Made by a program: the position numbers and the translations under genes
Notes under the pieces: model-generated
Seen by the model: only the letters and a program-made list of their open reading frames with translations
Told to the model about the DNA's origin: nothing
Database searches by the model: none
DNA from: Nitrospirota bacterium
GTDB taxonomy: Bacteria; Nitrospirota; UBA9217
Assembly (NCBI GenBank): GCA_035516965.1
Contig: DATIZR010000096.1
Location: 1 to 37,611 of the forward strand
Length of the DNA stretch: 37,611 nt
Reading direction: 5' to 3'
In this document: positions 10,011 to 22,827 of the stretch, in pieces
Layout: every line of letters begins with the position of its first letter
Position numbering within the stretch: position 1 is the first letter of the stretch

Positions 10011-10098
10011 AGATGCCTTTGACTGCAGAGTTCTCTTTTTTGACTTAATTGATCTGGGCGAAGCTTCGCTAATTTTATATTTGCCATTGGAGGTAGTC

Positions 10099-11886
10099 GT
10101 GTCGATAAAAAAACACCCAGCAAAAATGACCTTCGAGCTGAAGGATGTGACGGAGCCGGTGCTGTACCGTGATGTGTTCCCCTACACGAGCGTCCCGCGC
10201 GTCGTGCTCGAGGAGCGGCTCATCCAGACGAACATCCCGAAGGACATCTGGATCACGGACACTACCTTCCGCGATGGCCAGCAATCCCGGCCGCCCTACA
10301 CACCCAAGCAGATCGCCGATATCTTCGACTTCATGCACCGCATGAGCGGGCCCAAGGGCGTCATCCGTCAGTGCGAGTTCTTCCTCTATTCGGAAAAGGA
10401 CCGCGAGGCCGTCCGGCTCTGCCGGGAGCGCGGATACCGGTATCCCGAGATCACCGGCTGGATCCGGGCGAACAAAAACGACTTCAAGCTCGTGAAGGAC
10501 ATGGAGCTGAAGGAAACGGGCATTCTCACGTCCTGTTCCGACTACCACATCTTCCTGAAGCTGAACATCTCCCGCAAGGAGGCGCTCAAGCAGTACTGCG
10601 GCATCGTCTCGACCGCGCTGGAACAGGGCATCAAGCCGCGCTGCCACTTGGAGGACATCACCCGGGCCGACTTCTACGGATTCGTGATCCCCTTCGTGCA
10701 GGAGCTGATGAAGCTCTCGGAGCAGGCGCGGATCCCGGTCAAGGTCAGGGCCTGCGACACCATGGGCTACGGGTTCCCTTTCCCGGGCACGGCCCTTCCG
10801 CGCGGCGTGCCGGAGATCTTCTACGCCCTTATCCATGACGGCGGCGTGCCCTCGGAGCAGCTCGAATGGCACGGCCACAACGACTTCCACAAGGGGCTGG
10901 TGAACGGAACCGCCGCCTGGATGTACGGCTGCTCCGCCGTGAACGGAGCGCTCCTCGGGTTCGGCGAACGAACGGGCAACACGCCCGTCGAGGCCATGCT
11001 GATGGATTATATCAGCCTGACCGGCGAGGACTCCGGCATCGACACCACGGCGATAACGGAGATGGCCGAATATTTCCGGACCGAGATGGGCTTCCCCATC
11101 CCCACGAACTACCCCTTCGTGGGCTCCGAGTTCAACTCGACCGCGGCGGGCATCCATGCCGACGGCATGATGAAGAACGAGGAGATCTATAACATCTTCG
11201 ACACGACGAAGATCCTGAAGCGGCCCATGGGGGTCATCATCACGGACAAGTCGGGCGTCGCGGGCATCGCGCACTGGGTGAACAGCCACCTCCACCTGGA
11301 CGCGGACACGAAGATCGACAAGCGCCATCCCGGGCTCGCGAAGATAAACAAATGGGTCATGGAACAGTATGAGCAGGGACGGACCACGAGCATCTCGCAT
11401 GAGGAGCTGCTCGACCGGGCCAAGAAGTACCTGCCGGAATACTTCGTCTCCGATCTCGACCGCTTGAAGAAGAAGGCATCGGAGGTCGCTCGCCACATCG
11501 TCGAGGAGTTCGTCGGAAAGCCTGAGATACGCTCCATGGACCCGAAAAAGCAGGAGCCCGTCATGGAGAAGCTGCAGCGGGAGGACCCGTACCTTCAGTT
11601 CGTGTATGTCGTGAACGCGGAGGGAAAGAAGATCACCAAGAACATCACCGACATCGAGAACAAGGCGAAGTACGAGGATTCCGGCCTGGGCGACAATTTC
11701 TCCGACCGGCCGTGGTTCATCAGCCCGATGAAGGACGGCAAAAGCTTCGTATCCGACTTCTACACGTCCAAGATCACGGGCGCGCTCTGCATCACCGTGT
11801 CGGCACCCATCATGTCGATGAAGGAAGAGATAGTCGGGGTCTTCGGCGTGGACATCCGGTTCGAGGACCTGGTCAGGGCAGAGTAG
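10099..11886 (+). CDS. HMGL-family acyltransferase (Re-citrate/homocitrate synthase-like) fused to a C-terminal Cache-like domain
   Basis: The 595-residue protein opens with a DRE-TIM catalytic barrel, about residues 48-330. It carries ITDTTFRDGQQSRPPYT (Arg58-Asp59, the RDGxQ motif), CHLEDITRAD (182-191), the metal-binding WHGHND (257-262) and GFGERTGNTPVEAML. A linker with AGIHADGMMKNEEIYN follows, as in isopropylmalate and homocitrate synthases. These enzymes condense acetyl-CoA with a 2-oxoacid; oxaloacetate, 2-oxoglutarate or another substrate cannot be told from sequence. Instead of the LeuA regulatory domain, residues about 486-595 look like a PDC/Cache sensor: YLQFVYVVNAEGKKI, FSDRPWFISPMKDGKSFVSDF, CITVSAPI, VGVFGVDIRFEDLV. 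No membrane segment or signal peptide is seen, so the sensor would be cytosolic. GTG 10099 was chosen because GGAGG lies 5 bases upstream. A strong terminator follows. Confidence 0.85.
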   Translation: MSIKKHPAKMTFELKDVTEPVLYRDVFPYTSVPRVVLEERLIQTNIPKDIWITDTTFRDGQQSRPPYTPKQIADIFDFMHRMSGPKGVIRQCEFFLYSEKDREAVRLCRERGYRYPEITGWIRANKNDFKLVKDMELKETGILTSCSDYHIFLKLNISRKEALKQYCGIVSTALEQGIKPRCHLEDITRADFYGFVIPFVQELMKLSEQARIPVKVRACDTMGYGFPFPGTALPRGVPEIFYALIHDGGVPSEQLEWHGHNDFHKGLVNGTAAWMYGCSAVNGALLGFGERTGNTPVEAMLMDYISLTGEDSGIDTTAITEMAEYFRTEMGFPIPTNYPFVGSEFNSTAAGIHADGMMKNEEIYNIFDTTKILKRPMGVIITDKSGVAGIAHWVNSHLHLDADTKIDKRHPGLAKINKWVMEQYEQGRTTSISHEELLDRAKKYLPEYFVSDLDRLKKKASEVARHIVEEFVGKPEIRSMDPKKQEPVMEKLQREDPYLQFVYVVNAEGKKITKNITDIENKAKYEDSGLGDNFSDRPWFISPMKDGKSFVSDFYTSKITGALCITVSAPIMSMKEEIVGVFGVDIRFEDLVRAE

Positions 11887-13378: not shown

Positions 13379-13543
13379 TGCCGCGGATGGGACTGATGGT
13401 CAAATGAAGAACTTCAAGAGTTTCGTCTCGGACTTTTATGCGCCAAGACCACGCGTGCGCTCTGCATCACCGTGTCGGCCCATCATGTCGATGGATGGAG
13501 GAAGTGATCGTCGGGGTTTTCATTTTCGATGTGGAATCCGGTG
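13379..13543 (+). pseudogene. Decayed fragment of a second Cache-domain 3' end
   Basis: This stretch is recognisably a diverged, frameshifted copy of the last ~165 bases of the HMGL-Cache gene (about 11710-11870). One frame gives MKNFKSFVSDFY, against MKDGKSFVSDFY in the intact protein; shared DNA words include GCGCTCTGCATCACCGTGTCGG and CATCATGTCGATG. The frame is lost after SDFY, regained for PIMSM and lost again before EEVIVGVFIFDV, so at least two indels break it. It lies on the plus strand and stops right against the 3' end of the convergent histidine-kinase gene. No upstream catalytic part is visible, so it is a relic of a duplicated or related gene. Confidence 0.8.
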
Positions 13544-15392: not shown

Positions 15393-15734
15393 TTACTGTA
15401 TTGTGATATCAATCAGTGAACTAGCCATAGCAAATGAAGGAGCATGATGCAATGAGAAAGACGTGACCCCAATTGGTCCGTCGTACGCAATACCTTTCAG
15501 TGCGTCAAGCGTTGGTTTGTTGACGTTGTCGGTATCTTTCCGCTCTTCCTTTTTCTGATTCGTCACATATATAATTTCGACCTCGATATCGTTAGACTTG
15601 ATGGGACTTGTTATCTCGCCCAGAGCGGCATCGCGAACGGCATTGAAGTAGACCTGTTTTCCTTTGCCTTTCATTGTGGGACGTTCTTCGACCCATATCA
15701 GATAGGCCGGAGTTTCGAAACGATTGTATTTCAT
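15393..15734 (-). CDS. RusA-like Holliday-junction resolvase family protein (orphan)
   Basis: This 113-residue protein has the RusA core: a beta-rich start (ETPAYLIWVEERPTMKGKGK, then IEVEIIYVTN) followed by DTDNVNKPTLDALKGIAYDG. The pattern D-x-DN-x-x-K-x-x-LDAL-x-G-x-x-x-D (Asp67, Asp69, Lys73, Asp85) matches the RusA active-site layout, although the usual DD pair at the end is DG. RusA enzymes cut four-way DNA junctions and are mostly prophage-borne. No phage gene is near. The gene stands alone between two inverted repeats, lacks an obvious Shine-Dalgarno and is more AT-rich than its neighbours, which suggests transfer. It may be a domesticated remnant with altered activity. The family call is by motif only. 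Confidence 0.65.
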   Translation of the reverse strand: MKYNRFETPAYLIWVEERPTMKGKGKQVYFNAVRDAALGEITSPIKSNDIEVEIIYVTNQKKEERKDTDNVNKPTLDALKGIAYDGPIGVTSFSLHHAPSFAMASSLIDITIQ

Positions 15735-19160: not shown

Positions 19161-19985
19161 TCACGCTGCTTTCCGCAAAGCATCGCCACCAATGTTGGCC
19201 TCTACCCAGGACAATGCGTACTCCGCGACCTCCTGCCAGCCGTCCTGCGCGACGATAAGGTGCGACCGGTTCGGAAACTCCTTGTAATCCGTGACCGCGG
19301 TTGAACGCTTATACAACTTATAGTTGATCCGGTTGAGGATCGGTGGAATCAGGTGGTCCTCCGCACCGTTGATCAGGAGCAGCGGAACACGTTCGCTGTT
19401 GCCATGATTTACCTTGTTAGCGGCGCGGGGATTGAGATTTCCGAACGCTACCTGGAAGATCGTGCGTCCCGGTCCCGGGATGGCGTTGTTGTCGTAAGCT
19501 GCGCGCGCATCCTTTTCCGTCATGACATGGGCGAAGGCGTAGCGGAATTGGTCGAACGTGAGTGCCACGTTGCGCCTGTAGTTGAACGGGTTCGACAAAA
19601 CCGGGCTCGCCGCCTTGATCACCGAGAGCGGCAGCCGATAGATCCCCTTCGGGGCAGCCCCATCGATGGACACCCCGGCCGCGCCCAAGCCTCGATCCAA
19701 CAGTATCTGGACAACCAGTCCGCCCATCGAATGGCCCATCACAATGGGCGGCTCGTCGAGGGACCGGACGAATTTCTCGTAGTGGTCGGCAATCTCAAGG
19801 AGTCCCAGTCCCGCGAGCGCCGAGGGATCGCGGCGGACCTCTTCCACCTCACCCTTCATCTGGGGCCACGCAGGCGTTAATACTCTATATCCCCGCCCTT
19901 CGTAATAGCCGCGGAAAGGGTCCCAACTGCGCGGGGTCATCCACAAGCCGTGGATGAGAACAATGGTATTTGTTTTTCCATCCAT
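19161..19985 (-). CDS. Alpha/beta-fold hydrolase
   Basis: The 274-residue protein is a single alpha/beta-hydrolase domain. The oxyanion-hole motif is IVLIHGLWMTPRSWDPF (His12-Gly13), the nucleophile elbow GHSMGG (Ser86), the acid probably Asp in LLINGAEDHLIPP, and the base His in EFPNRSHLIVAQDGW. No signal peptide is present, so it is cytosolic. Substrate is unknown; lipase, esterase and haloperoxidase-like relatives share this pattern. ATG 19985 is used because AGGAGG lies 9 bases upstream; the frame stays open to 20021. It is the last minus-strand gene of the redox-type block. Confidence 0.88.
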   Translation of the reverse strand: MDGKTNTIVLIHGLWMTPRSWDPFRGYYEGRGYRVLTPAWPQMKGEVEEVRRDPSALAGLGLLEIADHYEKFVRSLDEPPIVMGHSMGGLVVQILLDRGLGAAGVSIDGAAPKGIYRLPLSVIKAASPVLSNPFNYRRNVALTFDQFRYAFAHVMTEKDARAAYDNNAIPGPGRTIFQVAFGNLNPRAANKVNHGNSERVPLLLINGAEDHLIPPILNRINYKLYKRSTAVTDYKEFPNRSHLIVAQDGWQEVAEYALSWVEANIGGDALRKAA

Positions 19986-20098
19986 GACATGACTCCTCCT
20001 CTCCTGCGGCAGAGTTTTCATCCCACACTATTCTGCGACTGTGATCGCCCGGTCTGCGCCAGCAGTAAATCTGTCTATTCCCATAGATTCATGCCTAA

Positions 20099-20165: not shown

Positions 20166-20240
20166 TGTCAATGCGACGAAAGTACTGAACTCACAATTCA
20201 GCACGATTTGCAATACTAACATTTCATGCGAACATTGGAT
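20166..20240 (+). repeat. Direct repeat, copy 1 (about 75 bp)
   Basis: This aligns without gaps to 22239-22313; by hand count 63 of 75 positions agree. Conserved blocks include AGTACTGA, ATTCAGCACG and TCATGCGAACAT. A hairpin is kept in both copies (GTACTGAA...TTCAGCAC here, 20182-20204). Weaker similarity extends upstream (shared ATATCG about 14 bases before). The two copies bracket the CNB and AI-2E genes in the same orientation. Confidence 0.8.
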
Positions 20241-20478
20241 TTAGCGGACCTTTGACGGAAATCCTTCTGAAAAGTATGTCCCTGGACAGGGAACTTTCTT
20301 TACGGCACGGCAGTGACTTTTGCGTAATTTTTCTCCTCAGCAACATGAATCCTTCCACGTCTCATAGAATATCCGGAGATGTGAATATCTCCCGTTCCCG
20401 CTCGATCGGGCGGGCTCCTCCCCTTCACTTGCAGGCACATCATCCGGGGCTACTCTTTGTTTTTCATGAAAAAACACA

Positions 20479-20508
20479 TTGCCAGGAACCATGGGATTGC
20501 GGTAAAAT
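20479..20508 (+). promoter_or_regulatory. Promoter of the CNB gene, near-leaderless
   Basis: TTGCCA (20479-20484), an 18-base spacer and TAAAAT (20503-20508) end 9 bases before ATG 20518. Transcription would start within about 3 bases of the start codon, and no Shine-Dalgarno is present. Confidence 0.45.
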
Positions 20509-20517
20509 TTAAAACCT

Positions 20518-21006
20518 ATGATTTTAGATTCCAAAATAGTGAGAAGGTACTTTACCTGGGCCCTGGACACAACCAGGGAATCCCATCTCCGGACACTCAG
20601 TGACGGTCCCCTCTTTAAGGGTATGGACAAGAAACTGCTCAGGAAACTGCTCATCGACCTCATCGAAAAAAAATATGCAGCGGGCGATATTATCTTTCGC
20701 GAGGCTGAAAGCGGAAAGGCGGTCTATGTCGTCCTCGAGGGGTCGGTAAAAATAATCAAAGAGTCTGATCCGGAGAACAAGATACTTCATGTTCATGGAC
20801 CAGGCTCTCATTTTGGAGAGCTCGCCCTCATCGGCCACGCTTCACGGTTTGCTACTGCTGTTGCTGAAAAGGATTCGCTCCTTTTGATCATGTATAAGTC
20901 GTACTTTGACGATCTTATCCGGTGCAATAGTGCAACCTCTGCGAGAATTCTTTTAAACCTGGTCGAGATCTTGTCGGACTACATACACCGTAGCCAGCCC
21001 GAATGA
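20518..21006 (+). CDS. Stand-alone cyclic-nucleotide-binding-domain protein
   Basis: The 162-residue protein has a helical lead (1-30) and one CNB/cupin domain: LSDGPLFKGMDKKLLRKLL, YAAGDIIFREAESGKAVYVVLEGSVKII, then the phosphate-binding cassette GSHFGELALIGHASRFATAVA (Glu101, Arg110). The remaining C-terminal helices do not form a helix-turn-helix, and the length is too short for a CRP/FNR regulator, so it is not a transcription factor by itself. Such single-domain proteins usually regulate a partner protein. The next gene, a membrane permease, starts 13 bases downstream, so nucleotide-gated control of that permease is a reasonable inference. The ligand (cAMP, cGMP or other) is unknown. Confidence 0.88.
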   Translation: MILDSKIVRRYFTWALDTTRESHLRTLSDGPLFKGMDKKLLRKLLIDLIEKKYAAGDIIFREAESGKAVYVVLEGSVKIIKESDPENKILHVHGPGSHFGELALIGHASRFATAVAEKDSLLLIMYKSYFDDLIRCNSATSARILLNLVEILSDYIHRSQPE

Positions 21007-21019
21007 AAGATGAAAAGAT

Positions 21020-22174
21020 ATGACCATGACTGATGAAAAGCATAGGGGCGGCTCCTCGTTGACCGATTTGCGCAAGCTCCGTGACCAGATGCCAAGGTGG
21101 GTTGTTCTTCTCCTGGCTCTCGGTGTCGCAGCAGTCATCGCTTCCCGTATCACGCAGCTCCTCATGATGCTGATAGCCGCAGCGGTCATTGCCTATATTT
21201 TCAGCGCGGTTGTCAGGGCCGTCGAGAGGCTTGGAATCAAGAGGAGCGTGGCGGTCATTCTGCTCTTTGTGGTCGCTGCCGTGTTCGTGATTGCAGCAGA
21301 CCTTATCTTCATTCCCGACCTTAAGCGGGAAACCATGAACGTCTACGCAAAGTTTCCCGAATTCTTGCGTCAGATACAGGACGCTCTCCTGTTAACCGCG
21401 CGAAGCAGCGCAGAAAAATACCCCTTCATCGAATCAAGCATCATGAAACTTGTCGACACTGTGTTCGGTCCGAACGGATTTATCGAGGGGACACTCAACG
21501 CTTCAGCGATTCTCACGCAGGCAACGCCCGTTATTATGGCGCTCATTCTTGTCCCTTTCTTTGTCTTTTTCCTCCTGAAGGACTGGCCGGACGTATTGAA
21601 GAGGGCCATAGACTGGGTCCCGCCCTCTTACGTGGAATCGACTATTTCAGTCATTGGAGAGATCAATATCCTCGTTGGAAAATATCTCCGCGGGCTTGCC
21701 GCTGACTGTTTTGTTATAGGGGTACTGGCATCAGTGGGCCTCTGGCTCATGGGAAGCAACTATCCTATCACGCTCGGCATTGTAAGTGGTGTGGCAAATA
21801 TTATACCGTATTTTGGCCCCCTTATCGGATGCACGGCATCCGCCCTCGTCGCTCTGATGCAGTACCGCAGCCTTGATCCCTTATTGCATGTCGTTGTCCT
21901 GTACCTCGTCATAAAACTCATGGACGACCTCGTAATACAGCCTCTGCTGATCGGCAAAGGCGTGCACCTCCATCCCATGCTCCTGGTGATTACGTTGCTC
22001 GTGGGAGAGAAACTCTTCGGCATCATGGGGATGATACTGGGGGTGCCCGTCGTCACCGCTGCACAGAAGACTGCGGGCATCCTGCTGGAACACCGCCGGG
22101 AAACGCTGAGCAGGGAATCCGCGGGGCGCCTGATCAAGCCGCACCTTGTGAAATCTCCCGTCAGACCGATTTAA
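21020..22174 (+). CDS. AI-2E family transporter (PerM/YdiK type)
   Basis: The 384-residue membrane protein has the usual layout of the AI-2E (DUF20) exporter family: an N-terminal hairpin of helices (about 27-65), a third helix (73-95), a long soluble segment (100-165), then a cluster of five or so helices (165-345) with VPFFVFFLLKDW, the family-typical ITLGIVSGVANIIPYFGPLIG, and DDLVIQPLLIGKGVHLHPMLL. Family members have been linked to autoinducer-2 release or Na+/H+ antiport; the substrate here is open. It is co-oriented with and 13 bases after the CNB gene. The start at 21020 has only a weak ribosome site, and ATG 21026 is possible. Confidence 0.92.
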   Translation: MTMTDEKHRGGSSLTDLRKLRDQMPRWVVLLLALGVAAVIASRITQLLMMLIAAAVIAYIFSAVVRAVERLGIKRSVAVILLFVVAAVFVIAADLIFIPDLKRETMNVYAKFPEFLRQIQDALLLTARSSAEKYPFIESSIMKLVDTVFGPNGFIEGTLNASAILTQATPVIMALILVPFFVFFLLKDWPDVLKRAIDWVPPSYVESTISVIGEINILVGKYLRGLAADCFVIGVLASVGLWLMGSNYPITLGIVSGVANIIPYFGPLIGCTASALVALMQYRSLDPLLHVVVLYLVIKLMDDLVIQPLLIGKGVHLHPMLLVITLLVGEKLFGIMGMILGVPVVTAAQKTAGILLEHRRETLSRESAGRLIKPHLVKSPVRPI

Positions 22175-22238
22175 CGCTTATTCACGAATCCTCCCGCCAC
22201 GTCCCGCGCCGGTCTCAGAATATCGTGCCCTGAATGAA

Positions 22239-22313
22239 TGTCAATCCGGCGATAGTACTGAGCTCACCATTCAGCACGGTTTGCACTACCGACATCTCAT
22301 GCGAACATCAGAT
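22239..22313 (+). repeat. Direct repeat, copy 2 (about 75 bp)
   Basis: Second copy of the element at 20166-20240, same orientation, 65 bases after the AI-2E stop. The hairpin is 22255-22277 (GTACTGAG...TTCAGCAC). After it the gap holds two copies of a CAGGGGAC[T/C]GCTT word (about 22340 and 22372), perhaps another element. Confidence 0.8.
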
Positions 22314-22419
22314 AAGCTGCAATAAAGAGATTAGTGCGACAGGGGACTGCTTTCTGCGGGGGAGGTTACCAGGGGACCGCTTCGGGAGGCTGACATTTCT
22401 TCACGGAGCAAAGCGGCTG

Positions 22420-22827
22420 TCAGCGGGAGCACTGACGCAGTACGATAAAGTCATGGGCGTCAACAAAAACATCAAACCAATTTTCATCTGAAATCGTATC
22501 AACAGCAGCTCCCGTAATATGGGAACCATGGTCCGCGTAGCAGTACCTCACCTCGATGCCAAAAGATATTTCACGCGTGGGCATGAAGGAGATCGAGACG
22601 ATGCACTCGGTATGCTCGCCCTGACGAAACGGCACAGGACTCTCGAATAAGATACCGTTGCGGCTGAAGTTGCCGAGCAGCGCGGGCACGAATTCGTTGC
22701 CGCTCTTTACCTGCAGCTTGATATGCTCCTGGCAGGCATCGGGCACCGTGTATCGTTGTTCCCGCCTTTTTTCAGCAATTTCTTCCTCTGAACCGGAGGG
22801 AGGTGATTTCTTTCCTCGATCATCCAT
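22420..22827 (-). CDS. PilZ-domain c-di-GMP-binding protein
   Basis: The 135-residue protein is a single PilZ domain with the two c-di-GMP-binding motifs: RREQR (residues 21-25, RxxxR) and NFSRNG (53-58, [D/N]xSxxG), then beta-barrel strands (EISFGIEVRYCYADHGSHITG). A short charged N-terminus precedes it. c-di-GMP binding would let it modulate motility, surface attachment or a partner enzyme. It starts 6 bases after the stop of the upstream hybrid histidine kinase on the same strand, so the two are almost surely co-transcribed and likely work together. Confidence 0.9.
   Translation of the reverse strand: MDDRGKKSPPSGSEEEIAEKRREQRYTVPDACQEHIKLQVKSGNEFVPALLGNFSRNGILFESPVPFRQGEHTECIVSISFMPTREISFGIEVRYCYADHGSHITGAAVDTISDENWFDVFVDAHDFIVLRQCSR

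Follow-up and report, generated by a model that had tools for sequence, protein, structure and literature searches.

AI-2E-family permeases are widespread and mostly without a known substrate. In the known cyclic-nucleotide-binding (CNB) domains, a glutamate and an arginine hold the ribose and the phosphate of cAMP, and the residue that follows this arginine is small in the classical cNMP binders, a phenylalanine or a tyrosine being unusual at that place. The described systems that come closest to the locus presented here are TqsA (PDB 7nb6); the Na+(Li+)/H+ antiporters of the same family, also named UPF0118, most members of which are uncharacterised (PMC7221264); SLC9C1, a Na+/H+ exchanger whose gating depends on voltage and on cAMP (PMC6052114); and the CNB domains of PKG, PKA and SthK. 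Our locus lies in the window, by which we mean the whole stretch of 37,611 nucleotides that was analysed, a contig of a Nitrospirota genome, and consists of a CNB gene and an AI-2E permease gene bracketed by two direct repeats:

19161-20021, minus strand: alpha/beta hydrolase gene (Pfam scan), left neighbour, outside the pair
20166-20240, plus strand: copy 1 of the direct repeat, where the alpha/beta hydrolase gene (minus) and the CNB gene (plus) diverge; GC 0.39
20518-21006, plus strand: stand-alone CNB protein, 162 aa; PF00027, E 1.1e-21, 77 bits for a cut-off of 27.5
21020-22174, plus strand: AI-2E / UPF0118 family permease, 384 aa; PF01594, E 6.9e-58, residues 30-351
22239-22313, plus strand: copy 2 of the direct repeat, where the AI-2E gene (plus) and the PilZ gene (minus) converge; GC 0.49
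22420-22827, minus strand: gene of a PilZ-domain protein (Pfam scan), right neighbour, outside the pair

A preliminary description of this DNA had seen here two repeats flanking exactly one two-gene set, with 13 bases between the genes, and the coordinates and the Pfam matches agree with it. The CNB protein has no further Pfam domain beyond PF00027, and the open reading frames tested in the gap before its gene (20252-20512, plus strand; 20337-20663, minus strand) have no Pfam match. Its predicted structure, whose mean pLDDT of 66.5 is moderate and was used for the fold alone, is a CNB fold, the best structure matches being PKG, PKA, SthK and CRP-type domains. With PKG, PKA and SthK it shares sequence, fold and the glutamate and arginine of the phosphate cassette, but it differs from them in being a stand-alone protein, in the F/Y type of residue after the arginine and in its YKSYFDD segment. 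The permease has TqsA as its sole match among the PDB sequences at E <= 0.001 (E 9.5e-11) and is like it in the PF01594 domain, which covers residues 30-351; it is unlike TqsA in being paired with a CNB gene and in occurring among 18 tested genomes without LuxS. The structure model of the permease, with a mean pLDDT of 41.9, was too low to make an interface readable and was discarded.

The comparison with the antiporters goes beyond the common family. In a hand alignment with the signature E179-R182-K215-Q217-D251-R292-R293-E296-K298-S307 (PMC7221264), D188 of the window permease falls at E179 and R224 near K215. The other aligned positions differ: R182, Q217, D251 and R292 are replaced by D191, L226, N260 and D303, and R293, E296 and S307 by L304, Q307 and H318. 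By this hand alignment the Na+/H+ antiporter signature of PMC7221264 is absent from the window permease, which is mostly different at its positions. SLC9C1 resembles the locus in principle, in that a transporter is coupled to a CNB domain (PMC6052114), which in our case would gate it; the CNB domain of SLC9C1 lies within the chain of a transporter of another family, whereas the CNB protein of the window is separate. The preliminary description did not recognise the combination as a described one, and our searches of open-licence PMC papers likewise brought up no pairing of AI-2E and cyclic nucleotide in print.

The association of the two genes is conserved outside the window. When 395 genomes of the phylum, own genome included, were searched with a profile, a permease ortholog at E <= 1e-60 appeared in the genome of the window and in 11 others, and in all of these 11 a CNB gene is found directly upstream on the same strand, which disposes of the possibility, raised in the preliminary description, that the two genes never co-occur elsewhere. 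The 11 loci belong to four families (f21, six; f33, three; f26, one; f23, one), the f23 member being distant, at about 30%. If the pair of G282 is excluded (AI-2E at about 30%, CNB at 28-30%, CNB protein without the YKSYF motif), the count becomes 10 of 10. With starts picked by script, the reading frames of the two genes overlap in 9 of the 11 loci, the exceptions being G226 and G378, with intergenic distances of 246 and 38 bases. The YKSYF motif follows the CNB core in 11 of the 12 paired CNB proteins, window included (10 of the 11 other genomes), and in none of 19 unpaired CNB loci, none of which has an AI-2E gene in its 2.1-3.4 kb; judged by sequence, the paired CNB proteins form a subfamily that can be recognised as such.

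The pairing has its limits. Six AI-2E loci of the phylum that are less closely related were found to have no CNB gene (0/6; 3.0-4.0 kb each). A wider scan, which covered 84,980 species with one genome each, gave three permease loci. Two of them, L049 and L050, hold good relatives of the permease, come from Nitrospirota and have a CNB gene directly upstream of the permease, with protein identities of 44-49%; these are apparently the same contigs as G388 and G346 and were counted once. The third, L051, is from another phylum and stands outside the count of 11 loci; its permease is remote (26% identical) and its 12.5 kb hold no CNB gene, so that the pairing is not a trait of the AI-2E family at large. 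Relatives of the permease occur on 35 plasmid records, all of them below 60% identity (24.6-32.2% for the 15 listed), and on this ground a plasmid-borne pair was rejected. Judged by gene order, the pair resembles an operon, is conserved in part of the phylum and is presumably co-transcribed. In the six f21 genomes the operon runs on with relatives of the TrkA-type ion channel, LemA and TPM proteins of L050. At L050 (5514-10452) and at the other f21 loci, CNB, AI-2E, TrkA-type ion channel, LemA and TPM stand in a row, and these genes together may form a larger unit.

The reading we prefer, and to which we give an even chance, is that the pair encodes a transporter regulated by cyclic nucleotides through a separate sensor subunit, that the pair was acquired and that the repeats are an old trace. 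The CNB protein could instead be merely co-transcribed with the permease and act on something else, an alternative that we consider unlikely, though it deserves real weight: the putative complex of the two proteins is deduced from sequence, and CNB proteins are numerous, with six domain matches in this genome, that of the window included. Such a protein acting elsewhere would have to be reconciled with a pairing in 11 of 11 genomes of four families, with the overlap of the frames in 9 of the 11, with the fact that the two genes of the pair both group with one and the same set of two f33 genomes, and with a YKSYF motif that was seen only in paired CNB proteins.

The origin assumed for this regulated transporter is drawn from its ancestry. 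Among the 13 other genomes of f1, the family of the window, five of which are less than 90% complete, none has a permease ortholog at E <= 1e-30; taken by itself, this absence may also reflect a loss. In both trees the window CNB and AI-2E group with the f33 genomes G197 and G352 (supports 95/100 and 98/98), to whose copies they are 62-67% identical; the third f33 genome, G226, falls outside this group. The PriA of this contig is native: its identity to the counterparts is 63-76% for the other 13 genomes of f1 and 33-36% for f33. Since the pair nests with f33 while PriA is native, this lineage probably received the pair by horizontal transfer, from a relative of f33 within the same phylum. The GC contents of the two genes (0.48 and 0.54), low but not unique in the window, agree with a transfer and are too ordinary to carry weight.

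The repeats themselves are real. The two 75-bp copies align without gaps at 63 of 75 positions (84%), both on the plus strand, which confirms the size, likeness and common orientation previously estimated by hand. Alignment of the two intergenic regions gives a best local score of 90 for a maximum of 30 in 1000 dinucleotide-preserving shuffles, far above chance, and in a self-comparison of the whole window the repeat pair is found with E = 2.8e-14. Copy 1 ends 277 bases before the CNB gene, and copy 2 starts 64 bases after the AI-2E gene. The preliminary description had proposed a search of the whole genome, considering that a repeat present at hundreds of unrelated gaps would undo its reading; in the 3.8-Mb genome, at E <= 10, these two copies are the only ones. 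In 99 related genomes, 58 of which, own genome included, have some match at E <= 10, the matches outside the own genome are short fragments, the best with E 0.09. The 395 genomes of the phylum yield, at E <= 0.05, four short fragments outside the own genome, none of them credible; the best has E 0.0024 (37 nt, 81%), about as expected by chance from so many genomes. Searches of plasmids and phages gave no credible copy, and the viral contigs no exact match to the repeat core.

It had been suggested that the whole is a mobile or duplicated module, in which case the repeats would be the ends of a cassette, att-like or flanked by miniature elements, mobilised by a recombinase acting in trans. The repeats bracket exactly the pair, the ancestry of the pair is unlike that of the contig, and a weak RusA-like endonuclease gene lies about 4.4 kb outside the bracket. 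We nevertheless judge such a cassette improbable, for the repeat is limited to two copies in the genome, with no credible one in the 395 phylum genomes, plasmids and phages and no exact core match in viral contigs; the orthologous pairs of the f33 and f21 genomes have no comparable repeats nearby; the two copies are already 16% apart; and no integrase or transposase is found among the 34 open reading frames of the window scanned against Pfam. The recurrence of a terminal repeat at other sites, by which a mobile element is recognised, was not observed. In two f33 genomes the pair occupies one conserved chromosomal place, between a gene for an LPG-synthase-TM family membrane protein and DnaJ. 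What stands of the suggestion is that the pair probably moved between families, its ancestry being incongruent with that of PriA; what finds no support is a functioning mobile or repeat-defined unit, given the relatives' pairs without repeats, the fixed place in the two f33 genomes and a repeat found nowhere else that was searched. The RusA-like gene (15393-15734, GC 0.44), of a type of endonuclease often found in phages, is possibly a phage remnant.

The empty counterpart of the locus was sought through relatives of the PilZ gene. In six regions, those of five other f1 genomes and the own one, the flanking genes are missing with two exceptions: G009 has, at a distance of about 2.7 kb, a histidine kinase that is 39% alike, and G001 has a distant match to AhpC. 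In G004 the PilZ relative is 74% identical and the other flanking genes are absent. No relative with the same flanking genes as the window pair was found in the regions examined.

How much a bracket of this kind means was assessed in a sample of 22 pieces of the genome (419,885 bases, about 11%), compared with themselves for direct repeats within 6 kb. Many such repeats were listed, and the open reading frames were inspected at three repeat loci (L108, L109 and L114) and in the window. Besides the repeats of our locus, two direct repeats bracket a single gene: 11728/13404 in the window and 5725/6992 in G000:C61. The repeats of L114 are serine tRNA genes with other genes between them, and those of L109 lie inside one long open reading frame. 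With two other single-gene brackets in a sample inspected in part, the bracket alone is no sign of a special module. The second pair of the window (11728-11844 and 13404-13521, 80%) also has only two copies in the genome; its copy at 13404-13521 sits beyond a periplasmic binding protein gene and is what remains, with a frameshift, of a second Cache-like C-terminus like that of the gene 10081-11886. The gene 10081-11886 is itself an unusual fusion, joining in one chain an HMGL-like enzyme of the homocitrate/isopropylmalate-synthase type and a C-terminal Cache/PDC sensor domain. The repeat of L108 (G000:C61; 5725-5985 and 6992-7253) is 263 bp long, 92% identical, brackets one gene of the opposite strand and holds an open reading frame of about 50 aa resembling a small membrane protein. 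Long tandem repeats are present in L118 (11935-14470), offset by about 270 bp, and in L108 (16986-19548), offset by about 145 bp. In L086 (2200-11650) the G378 pair is surrounded by several repeats, each about 1 kb long, that have CNB-domain matches.

Rather than marking an insertion, the repeats could be a regulatory element shared by the pair, a binding site or an RNA signal, which we also hold to be improbable. An imperfect 7-nt palindrome, GTACTGA / TCAGCAC, is visible by eye in both copies. A divergent gap for copy 1 and a convergent gap for copy 2 are nevertheless ill-suited to a shared promoter or terminator, and the element is missing near the orthologs. The copies do not fold better than their shuffles (z -0.16 to 0.96) and an Rfam scan of the window matched no family, on which grounds an RNA element was rejected. 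An integron attC site was rejected as well: the core sites of attC are RYYYAAC / GTTRRRY, and both are absent from both strands of both copies. A common open frame (+2, 24 codons) runs through each of the two copies and its peptides are partly alike, and the open reading frame that covers copy 2 (22234-22491) matches no Pfam family; because the 12 differences fall 5, 5 and 2 on codon positions 1, 2 and 3 (hand count), there is no sign of coding constraint, and an origin as coding remnants is possible but disfavoured. The repeats are probably incidental to the pair, and we infer that they are not a working mobile element but go back to an insertion or a local duplication, of which they would be the worn remains.

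Returning to the cyclic-nucleotide-regulated transporter, its ligand and its substrate have to be considered. E101 and R110 of the phosphate-binding cassette (G-E...R) are invariant in the 12 paired CNB proteins, and the residue after the arginine, F111 in the window CNB, is F or Y in 11 of the 12, so the ligand may be altered or absent. Class III nucleotide cyclases were detected in 18 of the 18 genomes tested, and the messenger can thus probably be made. As to the substrate, the preliminary description thought of a signal-molecule exporter. An exporter of AI-2 under cyclic-nucleotide control would be in keeping with the name of the family and with TqsA as the only PDB sequence match, but LuxS (PF02664) is absent from all 18 genomes tested, own included, while 5 of 14 control genomes are positive, and this argues against an export of AI-2; the likeness to TqsA is moreover remote. 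The exporter suggestion is weakened accordingly, and we see very little chance for AI-2 as the exported molecule. The substrate is more probably an ion or a small metabolite. Ions or envelope-related solutes are favoured, because the f21 operon continues with the TrkA-type ion channel, LemA and TPM. That the contig is misbinned, which would make the absence of the pair in f1 meaningless, is hardly credible in spite of a 120-contig assembly with 2.95% contamination, in view of the PriA identities to f1 and f33 given above; the data are most simply explained by a correct binning and a transfer of the pair.

In the model that we propose, the CNB protein would be a detachable regulatory subunit of the permease. 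The binding of cAMP, or of cGMP or a related nucleotide, would shift its C-terminal helices; the YKSYFDD segment that follows the CNB core is the candidate contact with the permease, and the displacement of the helices would open or close transport through it. The 75-bp repeats would be what age has left of the insertion, or of a local duplication at this site, with no part in the present function. More tentatively, at a probability that we put somewhat below even, the pair would represent a two-gene cyclic-nucleotide-gated transporter in which the sensor is an exchangeable subunit of AI-2E permeases, which would have spread in the phylum as a transferred pair and, within one family, been joined to an operon of K+ channel, LemA and TPM. 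A subfamily accompanied by a cyclic-nucleotide sensor of its own, wherever it moves, offers a handle on the role and the regulation of AI-2E permeases. If true, the model would add a new architecture to second-messenger-gated transport.
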